IMG/VR virus record: IMGVR_UViG_3300027985_000312
Coordinates: 1-22,603 of that record
Strand: one strand, 5' to 3'
DNA: 22,603 bases
Origin: a virus
The first letter of the stretch is position 1. Every line of letters starts with the position of its first letter. Below are positions 16,072-22,603 of the stretch, piece by piece. The notes under the pieces are model-generated. The model searched no databases. It saw nothing but the letters and a program-made list of their open reading frames with translations, and was not told where the DNA came from. Position numbers and translations under genes: made by a program.

Positions 16072-16352
16072 GACACACCCACAGCCGGCGCGTCTGTCTC
16101 GATACAGGCCCACCAGTCTGCGTTCTCGTCCCACTTGAAGTGCAGGCGCTTGTCCTCTGCCTTGCCGTGGCATCCGGTGGTCCCGTCGCCGCACAGGCGT
16201 ATGGTCGGGCCGTGCAGGCCCCCGTCTGCCCTGGGCACTATGTGGTGTTCGGTCAGTGGCTGCAGGATCGTTGCCGGCGCACCGCAGATAGGGCACCACA
16301 GACGGAACAGCACGCTGGGCTTGTCCATCAGTGCTTGCCGGTGCAGGTTCAC
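16068..16352 (-). CDS. HNH endonuclease
   Basis: A 94-residue protein from GTG 16352 (overlapping the methyltransferase TGA); ATG 16328 is the alternative and removes 8 residues. It contains CPICGAPA, then EHHIVPRADGGLHGPTIRLC, then GTTGCHGKAE. This is a complete HNH/McrA-like beta-beta-alpha metal core: a Cys pair, His-His, and Cys-His. Short HNH proteins near terminase genes often assist packaging in HK97-like phages; they can also be restriction or homing nucleases. Here it is coupled to a methyltransferase upstream and a PD-(D/E)XK nuclease downstream. Confidence 0.85.
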   Translation of the reverse strand: MNLHRQALMDKPSVLFRLWCPICGAPATILQPLTEHHIVPRADGGLHGPTIRLCGDGTTGCHGKAEDKRLHFKWDENADWWACIETDAPAVGVS

Positions 16353-16708
16353 GCCAGCATCCGTTCCGCTGCCAGGCACACGTCCATGGACAGTTCGTAG
16401 GGAATCACGGCCCGTTCGGTGGCGTTCGCTTTCCCCTGTGTGCCGAACCGTGACCCACGGTAGCCCGCTTCGTGACACGGCGTGCCATCCGGAAGCGGTC
16501 TGTACGGTGTCGATGGCCACTCCCCGCCGGCGCCTTGTTCCATGTGCCGGCCCTCTGCGTCAACGACGGCCACACGCGACGCCTTACACCGTGGCCGCGG
16601 CTCCCATCCTTCGGGGAACACGCCCCAAAGGTCGGTCGGCTTCTTGGCAACGTTGCCGTACTGACACTGATCGATCGTGACTCGCGGTATCCCGCGCATG
16701 AACGGCAT
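16349..16708 (-). CDS. DNA cytosine methyltransferase, C-terminal part (separate frame)
   Basis: This frame carries the C-terminal half of a phage DNA methyltransferase: LLRQMPFMRGIPRVTIDQCQ then YGNVAKKPTDLWG, CHEAGYRGSRFGTQG, and ERAVIPYELSMDVCLAAE. Cognate proteins read this directly after the catalytic N-terminal domain. Here the N-terminal domain is in another frame, so a +1 shift is needed near 16720-16745. The in-frame ATG at 16708 has no good ribosome binding site, so independent translation is doubtful; the frame is open up to 16885 without a sensible sequence above about 16740. The stop overlaps the start of the HNH gene (GTGA). Confidence 0.65.
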   Translation of the reverse strand: MPFMRGIPRVTIDQCQYGNVAKKPTDLWGVFPEGWEPRPRCKASRVAVVDAEGRHMEQGAGGEWPSTPYRPLPDGTPCHEAGYRGSRFGTQGKANATERAVIPYELSMDVCLAAERMLA

Positions 16709-17051
16709 CTGACGCAGTAGCGCCTGCCAGGGCGTTGATGCTCGTCGGCTCGTGTATCCACCTTTCCCCGCCGGCGCGCAGCAGTGGTTTCCCACAATCC
16801 GCACACGTAGCGGTACAGGTGAACTGGAACCGCACGGCTGCCATACTGAACCCCTCACAGGGTGGTCCGGCCAACACACCGTCATAGGGTCCCTTGGCTA
16901 TGATCTCGTCCCACACCGCGCGATCCCGTATGTCTCCGGTGATCGTGCAGCCGAACTGTGGGCCTATGTCGGTGGTGACAACATCGTGTCCGCGCTCAAT
17001 GAACGCAGCACCAAACCCACCTTCGCCGGTGAACGCGTCAAGTATCCGCAT
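16584..17051 (-). CDS. DNA cytosine methyltransferase, N-terminal catalytic part (frame-disrupted)
   Basis: ATG 17051 overlaps the upstream stop (TGATG). Residues 1-70 hold the SAM-binding motif I (MRILDAFTGEGGFGAAF), motif II (VVTTDI) and the catalytic PPC motif IV (GVLAGPPCEGFSMA, Cys65), so this is a C5 cytosine methyltransferase domain. Then comes CTATCADCGKPLLRAGGERW, unlike the usual helical region and more like a small zinc ribbon. From about residue 110 the frame turns into nonsense, while the true C-terminal half continues in the frame ending at 16349. The ENP/ENV-type motif VI is not clearly present in either frame; WIHEP is the nearest. The gene looks broken by indel and partial loss, unless recoded. 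If active, the enzyme would protect phage DNA. Confidence 0.7.
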   Translation of the reverse strand: MRILDAFTGEGGFGAAFIERGHDVVTTDIGPQFGCTITGDIRDRAVWDEIIAKGPYDGVLAGPPCEGFSMAAVRFQFTCTATCADCGKPLLRAGGERWIHEPTSINALAGATASDAVHARDTASHDRSVSVRQRCQEADRPLGRVPRRMGAAATV

Positions 17052-17389
17052 CAGTCCCCGTCCTTCTCGCGCGGTGTGAACATGTCCTGCTGTCCGAACG
17101 CACACGGCTGGCACGGCGTCGCACTGTCTGCCAGCACGCAGTCCCTGCAATCGCCGCTCGGTATGCCAGGCTTGCGCGGTTCCCACATGTCGCCCTCTTG
17201 CGGCATGTCGGGGAACAGCTGCGCGGCCAGCTCGGACTGTGGTATGGCCTTCTCAATGTCAGCCAGTACCTCGTCACCGCCGCGTCCGCCGTACACGATC
17301 ATGCGTACAGCCAGCATCTGTTCGGGGTCGTTGCGGACACGCCGCGCGCAGGATCGGAACTCTACCTGGGTGACTTTCTTACGTGGCAT
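17051..17389 (-). CDS. Unknown protein with C-terminal Cys cluster
   Basis: A 112-residue protein starting MPRKKVTQVEFRSCARRVRN. Residues 80-97 contain C-x2-C and a second C-x2-C (GDCRDCVLADSATPCQPCAF), a probable zinc-binding knuckle. The start overlaps the upstream gene by 11 bases and the stop overlaps the methyltransferase start, so it is inside a coupled operon. The family is not recognised and no catalytic motif is visible. Confidence 0.65.
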   Translation of the reverse strand: MPRKKVTQVEFRSCARRVRNDPEQMLAVRMIVYGGRGGDEVLADIEKAIPQSELAAQLFPDMPQEGDMWEPRKPGIPSGDCRDCVLADSATPCQPCAFGQQDMFTPREKDGD

Positions 17390-17678
17390 CGCTCGACACC
17401 CCCAGGAACTGCATGCGCGCCAGGGGATCGCGCCAGAAATCGCCGCGCAGCTGGCCTGGGACCTCGGCGGGCGGCATTTCGTCGTACTTGCCTTCCATGA
17501 CCTCGATCACTTCTGCACGTGACGCCGACAGGTCGTGGCCTTCGCCGCTATGCAGGCCGACGATGGAAACCGTGTGCGCCATGACGCGTTCCAGCACCGC
17601 CACGGGGTCGCCGGTCAGCTCCATGTCAATGACCATGCCGCACATACACCACCAGCCGAACCGATATGTTTCCGCCAT
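17379..17678 (-). CDS. Unknown small protein
   Basis: A 99-residue protein starting MAETYRFGWWCMCGMVIDME. The N-terminal W-W-C-M-C-G motif is followed by a helix (DPVAVLERVMAHTVSIVGLH) and a likely second one (SRAEVIEVMEGKYDEMPPAE). The start codon overlaps the stop of the FtsK-gamma-like gene (TGATG) and the end overlaps the next gene by 11 bases. No family is recognised. Translational coupling suggests it is made with the zinc-ribbon/winged-helix protein upstream. Confidence 0.65.
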   Translation of the reverse strand: MAETYRFGWWCMCGMVIDMELTGDPVAVLERVMAHTVSIVGLHSGEGHDLSASRAEVIEVMEGKYDEMPPAEVPGQLRGDFWRDPLARMQFLGVSSDAT

Positions 17679-18421
17679 CAGTCCACCGCCTGTATATCGT
17701 CGCCGTCTTCCAGGTCGTCAACGTCGCCATACCGCAGGCGGTTCAGCTCGTTGGGATCGGTAATCAGGATCTGCCGCGGTATGGTCCCCACAGCAGGCCC
17801 GACGATCCCCAGGCGTTCCAGCGCGTCCAGCAGCACGCCTGCGCGGGCAAATCCTACCTTCAGCCGGCGCTGCAGCAGTGACGCCGACGCCAGGCCGCTG
17901 GTTATCGTCACGTCCGCGGCTTCCCACAGCAGCGGGTCGTCGCCGGCAACGCTTGCACTGACGCCTGGTCCGATCTCGCCAGCGTTCACGCGCGCCGCGG
18001 CCTCGTGCAACACGTCGTCAAGGCCGCCGCCGGTCCTCGGGCGCTCGGGCGGCAGTGGCGGCGTCGGACGAACACCCAGTGGCGGCGCGTCCATGGATTC
18101 CACCGCCGCTTCATGGTTGCCCTCGGCAGTCAGCTTGAAAAAGTCCATCAGCGTGGCGCCCGCGCGTTCATACTCGGCTTCTGCGTCTGCCAGTGCCTTG
18201 GCCTTGCGTTCGCGCTTGTCGCCGGCCGACTGCACCCATGCCTGCAGACGGCGCAGGACGTTGCGGGCGCGGTCGTTTCCGCTGATCTCGAACAGCTGCA
18301 GCTGTCGGTCCATCGCCTGGTCCAGCGGCTGTACTTCGCCGCCGCAGCTCTTGCAGCGCCCGTTCGGCGCTTCGGTGTCGAACGTCCCGCAGTCCAGACA
18401 GACAAACAGTGTTGCATCCAC
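17678..18421 (-). CDS. Zinc-ribbon protein with C-terminal FtsK-gamma-like winged helix
   Basis: A 247-residue protein; ATG 18421 follows GAAAGGGCC. Residues 8-26 form a zinc ribbon (C8-x2-C11 and C23-x2-C26). Residues 50-110 are charged helix, and 112-135 a Pro-rich linker. Residues 161-220 (DDPLLWEAADVTITSGLASA, SLLQRRLKVGFARAGVLLDA, LERLGIVGPAVGTIPRQILI) match the FtsK/SpoIIIE gamma domain, with the sequence logic DPL...A...V....ASASLLQRRL+hGaRA..hhD.LE..GIVGP...PR.hL. In FtsK this winged helix reads the KOPS/SRS DNA signs that orient the motor. Here there is no ATPase part, so it may bind DNA as a regulator or segregation/packaging factor. The C-terminus is acidic. Confidence 0.8.
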   Translation of the reverse strand: MDATLFVCLDCGTFDTEAPNGRCKSCGGEVQPLDQAMDRQLQLFEISGNDRARNVLRRLQAWVQSAGDKRERKAKALADAEAEYERAGATLMDFFKLTAEGNHEAAVESMDAPPLGVRPTPPLPPERPRTGGGLDDVLHEAAARVNAGEIGPGVSASVAGDDPLLWEAADVTITSGLASASLLQRRLKVGFARAGVLLDALERLGIVGPAVGTIPRQILITDPNELNRLRYGDVDDLEDGDDIQAVD

Positions 18422-19520: not shown

Positions 19521-19885
19521 GACTCCGCCGCCTCGGGTTGACCAAACGGGAACACGCCCGTGGTGCCCCCGTCGGGATCGGTGACGATCACTGGACCGCG
19601 AAACAGACCGTATGCGCACCAGTCGCACTGACCGTCGTCGAGGAACCGGTGCAAACACTCTTGCGCCGCCACGGTCGGGTCCCACTCGTGCATATCGTCG
19701 CCACGGTCCTTTGCTGCCTCGTAGAACTCGCGCACGCTGTGCGTTTCGTGGCACATCGGACACACGAACGTGACGTGCTGTAGGTGCTCCTGGTCGCGGC
19801 CGCCGGCTATGTCGAACAGTCGCGCCTGCCATTCGTCTACCGTGTACGCCGTGCGGTCTTCCAGTGCGGTTTCTGGAATGTTCAC
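19517..19885 (-). CDS. VVA0879-like zinc-binding protein
   Basis: A 122-residue protein with GTG start 19885 overlapping the ATPase stop (GTGA). It has TAYTVDEWQARLFDIAG at the start, FVCPMCHETHSVREFYEA with C42-x2-C45, then QECLHRFLDDGQCDWCAYG with C77 and C87-x2-C90, and closes LFRGPVIVTDPDGGTTGVFP. This matches the VVA0879 family of small phage and bacterial proteins (W at the start, CPxC...HxxSVRxF, C...C, GLFR...V...F-x-F). The function of the family is unknown; zinc binding is probable. Confidence 0.7.
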   Translation of the reverse strand: MNIPETALEDRTAYTVDEWQARLFDIAGGRDQEHLQHVTFVCPMCHETHSVREFYEAAKDRGDDMHEWDPTVAAQECLHRFLDDGQCDWCAYGLFRGPVIVTDPDGGTTGVFPFGQPEAAES

Positions 19886-21114
19886 CGTGACACCATCCCG
19901 TCTTCAATCACGACACCGGCCGCGCCTGTCTCGTCCACGCGCTCGATCCACACCTGGAAATCGTGGGCTGTCGCCATGTCGGCTATCATGGCCATGTTCT
20001 CGCTGTCCAGCAGGCTGCCGTCGGTGATCCGGACCACGCGCAGTTCGGGGTTCATCGCCATGGCAAGCGCCAGCGATACGCGCAGGCGTTCGGCGCCTGA
20101 TGCCTGGTTGAACGGCTGGCCCTGGTACGTGACGCCCTCGGCATCGAACCCCAGCCCGTCCAGCGGGAAATGCGCGCCGGCCAGGCCGTCGGCCTTCTGC
20201 TGGTCTATGGCCTCGATCTGCGCCGTAAGCTCGTCGTACTGCGCTTCCAGTTCACCGAAGCGGGCGCGGGCGCTGCGCCACGCTGCCGCTTCACGCACCA
20301 GCTTGTTGCTTGCTTCGATGGACGCCAACTTGGCCTTGAACGGTTCCAGGTCGGGATCTTCGCCGAGTGCGAACACGGAAGCGTCGGCGCGCTTCTTGCG
20401 GTCCTTCGCCGCTGCCAGCGCCTGTTCCAGTCGTTCGACCTCTGCCGCTGCCGCCTGCTGCTCGGTGCGCGCCCTGTCGTTGGCCGACAGCACGGCCATG
20501 GCCGCTTCGTACTCTGCCATGACGGCCGATGCCGATTCCTCGGTGTCGGGTATGGTGTCGAACGCGGTCACGCCGTCAGACGCCAGGCCGCCCATGGACT
20601 CATACGCGCCCTTGGCGCGCTGTACGTCTTGGTGCAGCAGCCGGCGCGTGTCATAGATCGCCTGGCGCTTGGCGTCCAGGGCCACGGGATCGAACGGCAG
20701 TTCAACCAGGCCAAGCAGCATTTCGACCTGCTGACGCGCCGGCGCGTTGGCGAACTCCAAGGGATCGAACGACAGCGCGCCCACAAGCTCGTCCAGCATC
20801 TGTTGCGGGCGCTTCTGTGGTACGCCGTCTGGCGTGGTGACAGTCAGCGTGGTTGTTCCGGACTCGTCCCATGAGCGCGTCACCACGAGCGTGCCAAGGT
20901 CCAGACGCACGTCTGCCTTGTCTTCGCCTTCGCGCACAGGGTTGGGCGTGACCTTGGCCGCGGCTTTCCACTGCAAGGCCATCCAGATCGAATCAAGTAC
21001 GCTGGTCTTGCCCTGGGCGTTGCGGCCGGCAACGACCTGCACCGGCCCGTCGGGCGTGATGTGCACGGCGCGCAGCCGTTTGATGTTCTCGGCGCGCAGC
21101 TCTACGATCTTCAT
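19882..21114 (-). CDS. RecF/SbcC-like ATPase (SMC-type DNA repair ATPase)
   Basis: A 410-residue protein from ATG 21114, preceded by ACGGGGG. Walker A is VAGRNAQGKTSVLDSIWMAL (about residues 28-47). The middle, about residues 180-300, is a coiled coil rich in Ala, Glu, Lys and Arg. The ABC signature (ASGAERLRVSLALAMAM) begins at residue 338, and the Walker B/D-loop region is RVVRITDGSLLDSENM with TDG instead of the usual D-E pair. The C-terminus FQVWIERVDE fits the H-loop strand. Such proteins bind DNA ends or gaps in recombination and repair, often with an SbcD/Mre11-type nuclease; no such partner is visible here. It leads the next run of coupled genes. Confidence 0.88.
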   Translation of the reverse strand: MKIVELRAENIKRLRAVHITPDGPVQVVAGRNAQGKTSVLDSIWMALQWKAAAKVTPNPVREGEDKADVRLDLGTLVVTRSWDESGTTTLTVTTPDGVPQKRPQQMLDELVGALSFDPLEFANAPARQQVEMLLGLVELPFDPVALDAKRQAIYDTRRLLHQDVQRAKGAYESMGGLASDGVTAFDTIPDTEESASAVMAEYEAAMAVLSANDRARTEQQAAAAEVERLEQALAAAKDRKKRADASVFALGEDPDLEPFKAKLASIEASNKLVREAAAWRSARARFGELEAQYDELTAQIEAIDQQKADGLAGAHFPLDGLGFDAEGVTYQGQPFNQASGAERLRVSLALAMAMNPELRVVRITDGSLLDSENMAMIADMATAHDFQVWIERVDETGAAGVVIEDGMVSR

Positions 21115-21174: not shown

Positions 21175-21654
21175 TTACTTGCTGGGTGCTGGCAATACTC
21201 CCATTCGCTCGGCTTTCGCCACGATCTGGCGTACCTCGCGCGAGATCCCGCCGACGGCCTGCGCTTGCGAACTCGGGCGCCCAGGCACCGCCGGCGCATC
21301 GTCTTGCACCGCCGGCAGCTTTCCGTCCGTACGATCCCTGGACTGGTCCAAGCGGTCTGCCAGCTCAGAGACAATCGGCGGTATGCGGTCCAGCATCCTG
21401 CATGCCCTGCGCAGTGCGCCGGCGGCGTGTCGGTTCCCAGGTTCCTTGCTCGACGGCTTGCCGCTTGCCACCTTCACGTCGTCTGCTCGGTAGTTGTCGC
21501 GCTGCGCCACCATCTGTTCCAGTTCCGCCATCGCCTGCGCTGCCGCCATGAGCGACGCGCGCGCCCTTCGATCTGCCAGTGGAACGCGCAGCACGAACGT
21601 ATCTGGATCGGTGATCTTGTCGTCGTGTGGTTGTGCCGGTGGCTGGTACCTCAT
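21175..21654 (-). CDS. Unknown helical protein
   Basis: ATG 21654 lies 2 bases after the stop of the previous gene and gives 159 residues (MRYQPPAQPHDDKITDPDTF). The early part has FVLRVPLADRRARASLMAAA followed by a long helix (AELEQMVAQRDN). The rest is helical and charged (RRACRMLDRIPPIVSELADR, GGISREVRQIVAKAERMGVL). It lies directly upstream of the ATPase gene, separated by 60 bases, and may belong to the same process. No family is recognised. Confidence 0.65.
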   Translation of the reverse strand: MRYQPPAQPHDDKITDPDTFVLRVPLADRRARASLMAAAQAMAELEQMVAQRDNYRADDVKVASGKPSSKEPGNRHAAGALRRACRMLDRIPPIVSELADRLDQSRDRTDGKLPAVQDDAPAVPGRPSSQAQAVGGISREVRQIVAKAERMGVLPAPSK

Positions 21655-21656
21655 GC

Positions 21657-21995
21657 CTACCCCCTGTCTGGAATCGCCCACTCGTCTGCAAGCTCGATCC
21701 TGAAAGGTCCGCGAAAACGTGCTGTGAAAACAGGGTCATGGTACTGATGCATAAGCCGCCCACCGACCACCAAAGTGCCCGCAGGCTCACGGTCCATGGA
21801 AAGGTCCATGGCCTTGATTGTTCCGGATACGGTGATGATAGGCGCATCGCGCGTCCCGCCGACATGGAACACCAGCTGGTAGTCAGGATCTTCTGGAACC
21901 GCTTGCATGGCCGCCTCGGCTTCCAGTGGTGTGACTCTAAGCAGCGCGGCCATCATGCATGCCAGACTGCCGCCTACAAACTCGCGCCGATCCAT
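21657..21995 (-). CDS. Small protein with Tat-like signal peptide
   Basis: ATG 21995 overlaps the ASCH stop (TGATG); GTG 21998 is an alternative one codon earlier. The 112-residue product begins MDRREFVGGSLACMMAALL followed by RVTPLEAEAA. This has the look of a twin-arginine signal: R-R-x-F, a short hydrophobic stretch, then an AxA-type site. The rest is beta-rich (YQLVFHVGGTRDAPIITVSG, GTLVVGGRLMHQY, FTARFRGPFRIELAD). If real, the protein would be exported, which is unusual for this operon. It is also possible that the N-terminus is simply an amphipathic helix of a cytoplasmic protein. No family is recognised. Confidence 0.6.
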   Translation of the reverse strand: MDRREFVGGSLACMMAALLRVTPLEAEAAMQAVPEDPDYQLVFHVGGTRDAPIITVSGTIKAMDLSMDREPAGTLVVGGRLMHQYHDPVFTARFRGPFRIELADEWAIPDRG

Positions 21996-22483
21996 CACTC
22001 ACACCCCACGATCTGTCGCAGCACGGCCAGTTCCACGTCCTCGGGAAGCGTCCACAGCATCTGCCGTCCGGACACCGGCACAGGTTTGCGCAGCGGCTTC
22101 ACCTGGTCCAAGATCCACCCGAACCGCCCAGGGCCAAGGTCGCCCATGGCCTGTTCCCGCGCCATGACGGTGGGTAGATATTCGTCGCTGTACTCGTGGC
22201 CCAACCGCCATTCCAGATCCTCTGCCGGCACGCAGTCGATCACGCGAGCGACCGCTACGACCGCGCCGAAAGGAACGTGCAGCGGGTTGGTACGGTGATC
22301 GGTGAACGCGTCCAGTATCCGACCTTGCATAACGTCGGCATTCTGCACGTATCGCTGGTCCGCGCCGGCATGGATCGCCAGCAGTCCGCGGTGGTTCGTC
22401 TTCCAGCTGCGTGTCTCCACACGCTTTGCAGACCAGGCAATCAGCTGCGCATAGGGCTGGTAGAGTGTCACGGCCCGCAACAT
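21995..22483 (-). CDS. ASCH-domain protein
   Basis: ATG 22483 shares a base with the stop of the preceding gene (TGATG) and gives 162 residues; the frame runs further up but that part is a shadow of the preceding gene. The start MLRAVTLYQPYAQLIAWSAK then RVETRSWKTNHRGLLAIHAG is the classic ASCH N-terminal pattern: L-x-Q-P-x-A, then K-x-V/E-T/N-R-x-W, G-x-x-x-I-H-A. FGAVVAVARVIDC and GRFGWILDQVKPL follow. ASCH is a beta-barrel fold related to PUA and thought to bind RNA or modified bases. The role in phages is unclear; regulation or nucleic-acid modification is typical. Confidence 0.85.
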   Translation of the reverse strand: MLRAVTLYQPYAQLIAWSAKRVETRSWKTNHRGLLAIHAGADQRYVQNADVMQGRILDAFTDHRTNPLHVPFGAVVAVARVIDCVPAEDLEWRLGHEYSDEYLPTVMAREQAMGDLGPGRFGWILDQVKPLRKPVPVSGRQMLWTLPEDVELAVLRQIVGCE

Positions 22484-22603
22484 CAGAACAACCCCATTGG
22501 CGTGGTGTACTGCTCGTGCATGCCGCCACCGAACTGCCACGCATGGTCGGTGTGGTAGGTGCGGGCGATGCTTCCAAGCTGTGACGGCCACTGCAGCACT
22601 TCG
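22483..22603 (-). CDS. 3' end of an unknown gene (partial, runs off right edge)
   Basis: The last 40 residues of a minus-strand gene are visible, ending WQFGGGMHEQYTTPMGLF and stop TGA at 22483-22485. The stop overlaps the ATG of the ASCH gene in the TGATG manner used throughout this operon, and the frame has normal codon use. The fragment is too short to assign. It shows aromatic and His residues (IARTYHTDHAWQF) but no diagnostic motif. Confidence 0.6.
   Translation of the reverse strand, partial: EVLQWPSQLGSIARTYHTDHAWQFGGGMHEQYTTPMGLF

Follow-up and report, generated by a model that had tools for sequence, protein, structure and literature searches.

A Tat-like leader on an orphan phage protein, and arrays of Tat-type leaders in two other virus records

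Gene neighbourhood, translation start and relatives of P0001

The window, the whole stretch of DNA that was analysed, is the 22,603 bases of IMG/VR virus record IMGVR_UViG_3300027985_000312 (~63% GC), which is classed as linear and is therefore probably a fragment. All of the genes in the window that can be named are on the minus strand. Those below ~15 kb encode head and packaging functions (a terminase, and a capsid protein with relatives in 48 viral loci), and HNH, FtsK-gamma, ATPase and ASCH genes are located between 16 and 22.6 kb. The nearest named phage records are psiM2 of Methanobacterium for the terminase (46%) and an Arthrobacter phage for the ATPase (45%), and the phage record nearest to the ASCH protein is a faecal phage scaffold (37%); with nearest relatives that differ in this way, the phage is, as judged from sequence comparison, a mosaic. 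The protein with an FtsK gamma domain (17678-18421, minus strand; E 5.2e-20) has no motor domain match and may bind chromosome-polarity sites of the host. At 16349-17186, also on the minus strand, each of two overlapping frames resembles one half of a cytosine methyltransferase, with PPCEGFS in one frame and QCQYG...KPTDLWG in the other, which we take to be motifs of this enzyme. The pair looks like a frameshift or a decayed gene, and is a candidate cytosine methyltransferase.

P0001, an orphan protein of 112 amino acids with a Tat-like leader, is encoded on the minus strand at 21657..21995, stop codon included, and its N-terminal sequence is MDRREFVGGSLACMMAALLRVTPLEAEAAMQAVPEDP...; the translation agrees with the peptide quoted in the original prediction. 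The gene upstream encodes an ASCH-domain protein (21995..22483, minus strand; phrog_3193). Its start was reset to ATG 22483 because, in the phage matches listed for the ORF at 21995-22591 (minus strand), homology begins at residue 37-38 when numbered from GTG 22591, with one exception at 22, making ATG 22483 the likelier start. Downstream of P0001 are a gene without known function (21175..21654, minus strand), whose own GGGGT ribosome site overlaps the P0001 stop, and a gene encoding an AAA/SbcC-like ATPase (19882..21114, minus strand; phrog_1499).

The P0001 frame is the best of six by phage codon usage, scored over the whole frame rather than over codons 1-29 alone, and has no internal stop. 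The stop codon of the ASCH gene (TGA, 21995-21997) overlaps the P0001 start codon in a TGATG (21993..21997, minus strand), and a GGGGT ribosome-site word is positioned 7 nt upstream of ATG-1 (22003..22007, minus strand). There are 24 copies of GGGGT on the minus strand of the window, of which 16 are followed, after 3-11 nt, by an ATG or GTG with an open frame of at least 60 codons, some of the ORFs so counted not being genes. Examples are present at 22007, 21663, 21124, 17402, 7134, 6701, 1812, 1294 and 813, and GGGGT looks like the usual ribosome-site word of this phage and a good marker of starts. There is no GGGGT before the in-frame ATG-14, ATG-15 and ATG-30 of P0001, for which the anti-SD energies are -5.7, -5.7 and -5.9 kcal/mol, respectively, as compared with -6.1 kcal/mol for ATG-1. 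Given the open coding frame, the TGATG overlap and the presence of GGGGT only before ATG-1, the P0001 leader is most likely translated.

No accepted relative of P0001 was found in any collection searched, the blanks being weak for the near-exact pattern scans and for the genome groups, which were chosen without a known host. Neither the phage records, searched by tblastn, nor 21 whole virus records gave a match at E<=1, and pattern scans that matched 13 stretches in viral contigs and 176 in genome contigs identified no relative. A plasmid place found at E 0.6 is antisense to a CDS of Aquisphaera and was rejected as a relative; the same place was the only one returned by tblastn over the collected loci at E<=0.05, and the best in a phmmer search of 28,995 frames (E 0.078, with twelve others at 1.9-9.5). 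Two matches in 10 genomes (E 0.022 and 0.034) were set aside as ~40-residue stretches, too short and too weak. One match from groups of 396, 385 and 294 genomes (E 1.7e-4 for its genome) was rejected, as it has an internal stop, no confirmation by tblastn and transporter-like ORFs at the locus. P0001 has no match in Pfam, PHROG or NCBIfam. As single queries in viral contigs, the ASCH, ATPase and 21175 proteins identified no relative and the terminase identified three short loci. By tblastn, the 48 capsid loci contain no relative of P0001, the ASCH protein or the ATPase. An alignment search with the ATPase found 240 viral loci, of which the best 80 were kept, and 28 genome loci, and P0001 is absent from these 80 of the 240 and from the 28. 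A single-sequence model of the whole protein (mean pLDDT 53.1) has helices at residues 7-19 and 23-31, with six strands in the region from residue 40 onwards, and a model of residues 30-112, with the leader removed, has a lower mean pLDDT of 39.9; neither is usable for the packing of the N-terminus. A fold search with the whole-protein model gave no meaningful match (best E 0.41).

The P0001 leader relative to known Tat leaders and to chance

The predicted leader is encoded by codons 1-28 (MDRREFVGGSLACMMAALLRVTPLEAEA; 21912..21995, minus strand), with the cleavage site placed by an AEA motif, and is followed by a predicted mature part, residues 29-112 (21660..21911, minus strand), that has strands in the low-confidence model. 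The twin arginines are residues 3-4 (21984..21989) and an uncharged hydrophobic stretch occupies residues 6-19 (21939..21980, both on the minus strand). As a yardstick, we used 29 of the 34 leaders listed as Tat-dependent in P. aeruginosa in PMC6085387, and its 12 failed candidates. The Tat-dependence of the leaders tabulated there rests on the reporter assay of that paper or on previous studies cited in it, and the failed candidates are taken as the rows of its Table 1 that are absent from its Table 2, 12 being the number stated in that paper. RREFV at P0001 residues 3-7 conforms to the TatP form RR.[FGAVML][LITMVF], as do 27 of the 29 tabulated proven leaders and 4 of the 12 failed candidates. 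The uncharged stretch of 14 residues is above the 13-residue criterion; in the proven leaders it has 12-29 residues, with one shorter than and one equal to that of P0001. The hydrophobicity of the stretch (KD 1.98) is within the range of the 29 proven leaders (1.29-2.74), and the AEA at residues 26-28 constitutes an AxA site at a distance of 26 residues from RR, as compared with 17-36 in the proven leaders.

The leave-one-out motif score of P0001, 2.89, is higher than those of 5 of the 29 proven leaders and 9 of the 10 RR-bearing failed candidates in these tables, and so falls within the overlap of proven and failed leaders. With a KD threshold of 0.9, P0001 passes a set of simple criteria, as do 26 of the 29 proven leaders and 3 of the 12 failed candidates; the thresholds were our own choice, at KD 0.9 for the yardstick and shuffles and 1.2 for the locus counts and MDRREF contexts. 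P0001 has an Asp before and a Glu after RR, each of which is present in 1 of the 29 proven leaders. It has no match to the Pfam TAT_signal profile (PF10518) at E<=1, a weak test in that 2 of 10 leaders from the arrays described below also have no match at E<=0.01, with other viral leaders matching down to E 1.1e-8. The residue directly past the hydrophobic stretch, R20, is basic, and counts for Tat because basic residues in the C-region hinder Sec, as stated in PMC6085387. The resemblance to Tat substrates that had been claimed for P0001 extends to motif, hydrophobicity, length and AxA site, and makes a Tat reading reasonable; it is reduced by the acidic residue on either side of RR and the absence of a TAT_signal match. 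A lipobox has the form [LVI][ASTVI][GAS]C, and a lipoprotein signal was rejected by eye, as SLAC at residues 10-13 has Ser at -3 and is preceded by only 7 uncharged residues (6-12).

When residues 2-40 were shuffled 200,000 times, 212 shuffles (~1 in 1000) had the motif plus a hydrophobic stretch. Of these, 62 also had an AxA site and 7, AxA not being required, had a motif score as high as that of P0001. Similarly, 237 of 200,000 random peptides of phage composition passed, 69 with AxA and 14 with a motif score as high. The twin-arginine, hydrophobic and AxA features originally reported for this N-terminus are all present, and their combination is infrequent among the shuffles; the likeness to a Tat signal is real and better than chance. 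As a pick from a large scan, the leader is notable, not overwhelming. For 29 genes of the window obtained with a simple caller, which is greedy by length and includes spurious ORFs, the shuffled expectation is 0.03 Tat-like starts; none was counted, the caller having dropped P0001 for a longer overlapping ORF.

Two of the 967 genes called in the 48 capsid loci have Tat-like starts, with 1.08 expected from shuffled N-termini, as do 3 of 909 in the ATPase viral loci (best 80 of 240; 1.47 expected). Together, there are 5 in 1876 genes with 2.55 expected, so that Tat-like starts in these phage loci occur at about twice the shuffled expectation, in tiny numbers and not clearly above chance. The 28 ATPase genome loci have 1 in 279 genes (0.43 expected). 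Such exported proteins had been described as rare among phage early genes; the rarity is supported by the 5 in 1876 genes, and behind the designation as early are only the neighbouring genes for the ASCH protein and SbcC-like ATPase. Because Tat-like starts are this rare in phages, a single case may be due to chance.

Scanning viral contigs for DNA that encodes MDRREF plus a T-centred codon identified 29 stretches, in 22 distinct contexts. A fitting hydrophobic stretch is present after the MDRREF start in 6 of the 22 contexts versus 35 of 601 comparable ATGs (5.8%) in the same loci (binomial p 0.0013). At this background rate ~1.3 of the 6 would be background; most starts with such a stretch are then not background, making a Tat signal more probable for P0001, which has the same kind of start. 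In these 29 loci, Tat-like starts are present in 7 of 354 genes, as compared with 0.45 expected, and 5 of these are the very starts by which the loci had been selected. Some MDRREF genes could be host genes sitting on viral contigs. Other small MDRREF proteins with hydrophobic N-termini are encoded in viral contigs at L172:6950-7276+ (with the same start in L195), L187:257-607+ and L192:9447-9887-, and further ones at L180:688-1113+ and L188:2501-2770+. Of those scanned, none has a clear PHROG or a Pfam match that exceeds the cut-off; L180:688-1113+ matches TAT_signal at E 0.0054, below cut-off, and the L172 protein has no match in phage records.

Arrays of Tat-type leaders in two other virus records

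Tat-type leaders occur in arrays in IMGVR_UViG_3300018080_004888 (G023, 84.5 kb; loci L198, L200, L201, L203 and L204) and IMGVR_UViG_3300029258_003252 (G022, 36.7 kb; loci L184 and L202). Codons for roughly RR[DE]F[hydrophobic] have 15 occurrences on the reverse strand of G023 and a single one on its forward strand, with 6 and 0, respectively, in G022, and the pattern read backwards is absent from both. Three other records have 4, 1 and 2 matches to the pattern, with 2, 0 and 1 in the controls. There are 14 genes that start with Tat-type leaders in the 77,001 bases read of G023 and 6 in the 18,000 bases read of G022, and 7 of the 20 leaders have the core TAAAGAAAVLP in common. In ungapped comparison, the 14 G023 proteins have a mean identity of 47% over the first 24 residues and 6% over residues 31-90. 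When 19 of the 20 mature parts were compared by blastp, 9 of 171 pairs were related at E<=0.01, including 2 pairs from G023, and the cargos are thus mostly, but not all, unrelated. Ten of the 20 proteins were searched against Pfam, and 8 match TAT_signal at E<=0.01, 5 of them above cut-off. The G023 protein encoded at L200:1528-2631:- has a match to Gp23 major capsid protein (E 5.8e-15) in addition to TAT_signal, and tblastn aligns it with phage proteins annotated as major capsid protein, with no place covering 80% of the query. Only 2 of ten other G023 proteins matched PHROGs, so that the viral nature of G023 rests on IMG/VR and the Gp23 match. As a leader shared by unlike cargos, in the presence of a T4-type capsid homologue, recalls the capsid-targeting sequence of T4, Tat export is not the sole reading for G023.

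In 12 of the 20 leaders, the hydrophobic part (TAAAGAAAV type) is encoded by a perfect inverted repeat whose arms are 11-15 bp long, as exemplified by L200:3604-3633, L200:5953-5982 and L202:13313-13345, and 26 such hairpins are present in the 95,001 bases read of G022 and G023. Some copies have compensating changes, for example ACC/GGT to ATC/GAT in L200:5953-5982. When nine leaders were folded, z values ranged from -3.4 to -7.2 for the six with a hairpin and from 0.3 to 1.1 for the other three. In a covariation count, 76.5% of cells are paired; sliding by 3 columns still gives 67.7%, owing to repeated Ala codons, and with the control nearly as high the hairpin rests on its perfect arms more than on this count. 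The hairpin may be a regulatory RNA, a terminator or a palindromic mobile element. A hairpin in the P0001 leader was rejected (z 0.08, like shuffles).

Interpretation and comparison with known systems

The explanation we tentatively favour, with a probability just short of even, is that P0001 is an exported Tat substrate; from its sequence, the chance that the leader is a working Tat leader is about even. P0001 would be a translated accessory phage protein that, to judge from the packed genes, shares one transcript with the ASCH, 21175 and ATPase genes. Residues 1-28 would act as a Tat signal, in which DRREFV would be read by the host TatBC receptor and the short, weakly hydrophobic stretch would insert. 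Signal peptidase I would then presumably cut after AEA28, and a folded domain of ~84 residues would remain on the far side of the cytoplasmic membrane. That the exported protein changes the envelope of the infected cell is a guess, and the role in blocking superinfection that was originally suggested is speculation, one of several guesses for a role outside the membrane. In favour of Tat export are the support for the gene and its start, a leader within the ranges of the proven leaders tabulated in PMC6085387 that scores above 9 of 10 RR-bearing failed candidates, the enrichment after MDRREF and the TAT_signal-matching leaders on virus genes. Against it are the overlap in scores, the acidic residues that flank RR, the absence of a TAT_signal match, the rarity of such starts in phage loci, not clearly above chance, and the failure of the collections searched to yield a homologue; the poorer model obtained without the leader (39.9 versus 53.1) was also counted against it, though both models are unusable.

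If the resemblance were coincidental, P0001 would be a cytoplasmic protein whose N-terminal helix happens to bear RR as well as a hydrophobic face and packs against its own domain or a partner. That ~0.1% of shuffled N-termini pass for motif and stretch in a scan that covers many genes, that in the other phage loci 5 of 1876 genes have such starts against an expectation of 2.55, and that the low-confidence model has helices at 7-19 and 23-31 are all consistent with coincidence. This explanation is possible but rather unlikely, given that only 62 of 200,000 shuffles combine motif, stretch and AxA, only 7 have motif and stretch with a score as high, and hydrophobic stretches are enriched after MDRREF starts in viral contigs. 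The hydrophobic stretch could belong to a Sec signal or an uncleaved membrane anchor, with the Arg pair providing mere positive charge, and 7 of the 10 RR-holding failed Tat candidates in the P. aeruginosa tables do reach a similar KD (1.57 to 2.89). The stretch has, however, just 14 uncharged residues, two of them Gly, before R20, and the n-region has a net charge near zero, which is poor for Sec; we consider such a signal or anchor improbable. Least probable, and very unlikely indeed, is that translation starts at ATG-30 (21908) and no leader is made: a GAGG is positioned 5 nt upstream, with an anti-SD energy of -5.9 kcal/mol, but GGGGT precedes ATG-1 rather than ATG-30, ATG-1 is in the TGATG overlap and the frame, scored as a whole, is open and coding.

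To our knowledge, phage proteins with a role outside the membrane depend on Sec, SAR or lipoprotein signals. Folded export of a phage protein by Tat, if true, would be a further route by which phages alter the envelope and, if its leader is real, P0001 would be a Tat substrate that is unusual as a small phage orphan. Taken alone, a borderline signal on an orphan is of modest weight; the arrays in G022 and G023 suggest a wider question, more interesting than P0001. P0001 could conceivably, though we regard this as doubtful, be one of a scattered class of phage genes that combine a host-type Tat leader with an orphan protein for folded export during infection, with G023 as the extreme case. In the literature on phages with Tat or signal peptides, the titles and abstract openings among the matches listed include no phage-encoded Tat substrate, and on this basis the class is so far undescribed.

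The short P. aeruginosa Tat leaders of PvdN (MNDRRTFLK...) and NapA (MNLTRREFAK...), as given in Table 2 of PMC6085387, resemble P0001 in having the Arg pair near the start, an F at the same place, a weakly hydrophobic stretch and a C-region that ends in a signal peptidase site. As tabulated, PvdN has Asp before RR and NapA has Glu after RR, each in a proven leader, whereas P0001 has both acidic residues together. PvdN and NapA are larger enzymes; what remains of P0001 after export would be an orphan domain of 84 residues, and P0001 has no Lys after the motif. The leaders of G022 and G023 are in arrays of 6 and 14 genes, are similar to each other and Ala/Gly-rich, and most of those tested match TAT_signal, whereas the P0001 leader is single and has no profile match. 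In addition, 12 of the 20 array leaders are hairpin-coded, whereas that of P0001 folds no better than shuffles. What the arrays and P0001 have in common is that the genes are viral, that the leaders are of the MxRR[DE]F[LIVF] type and that most of the proteins have no known function.
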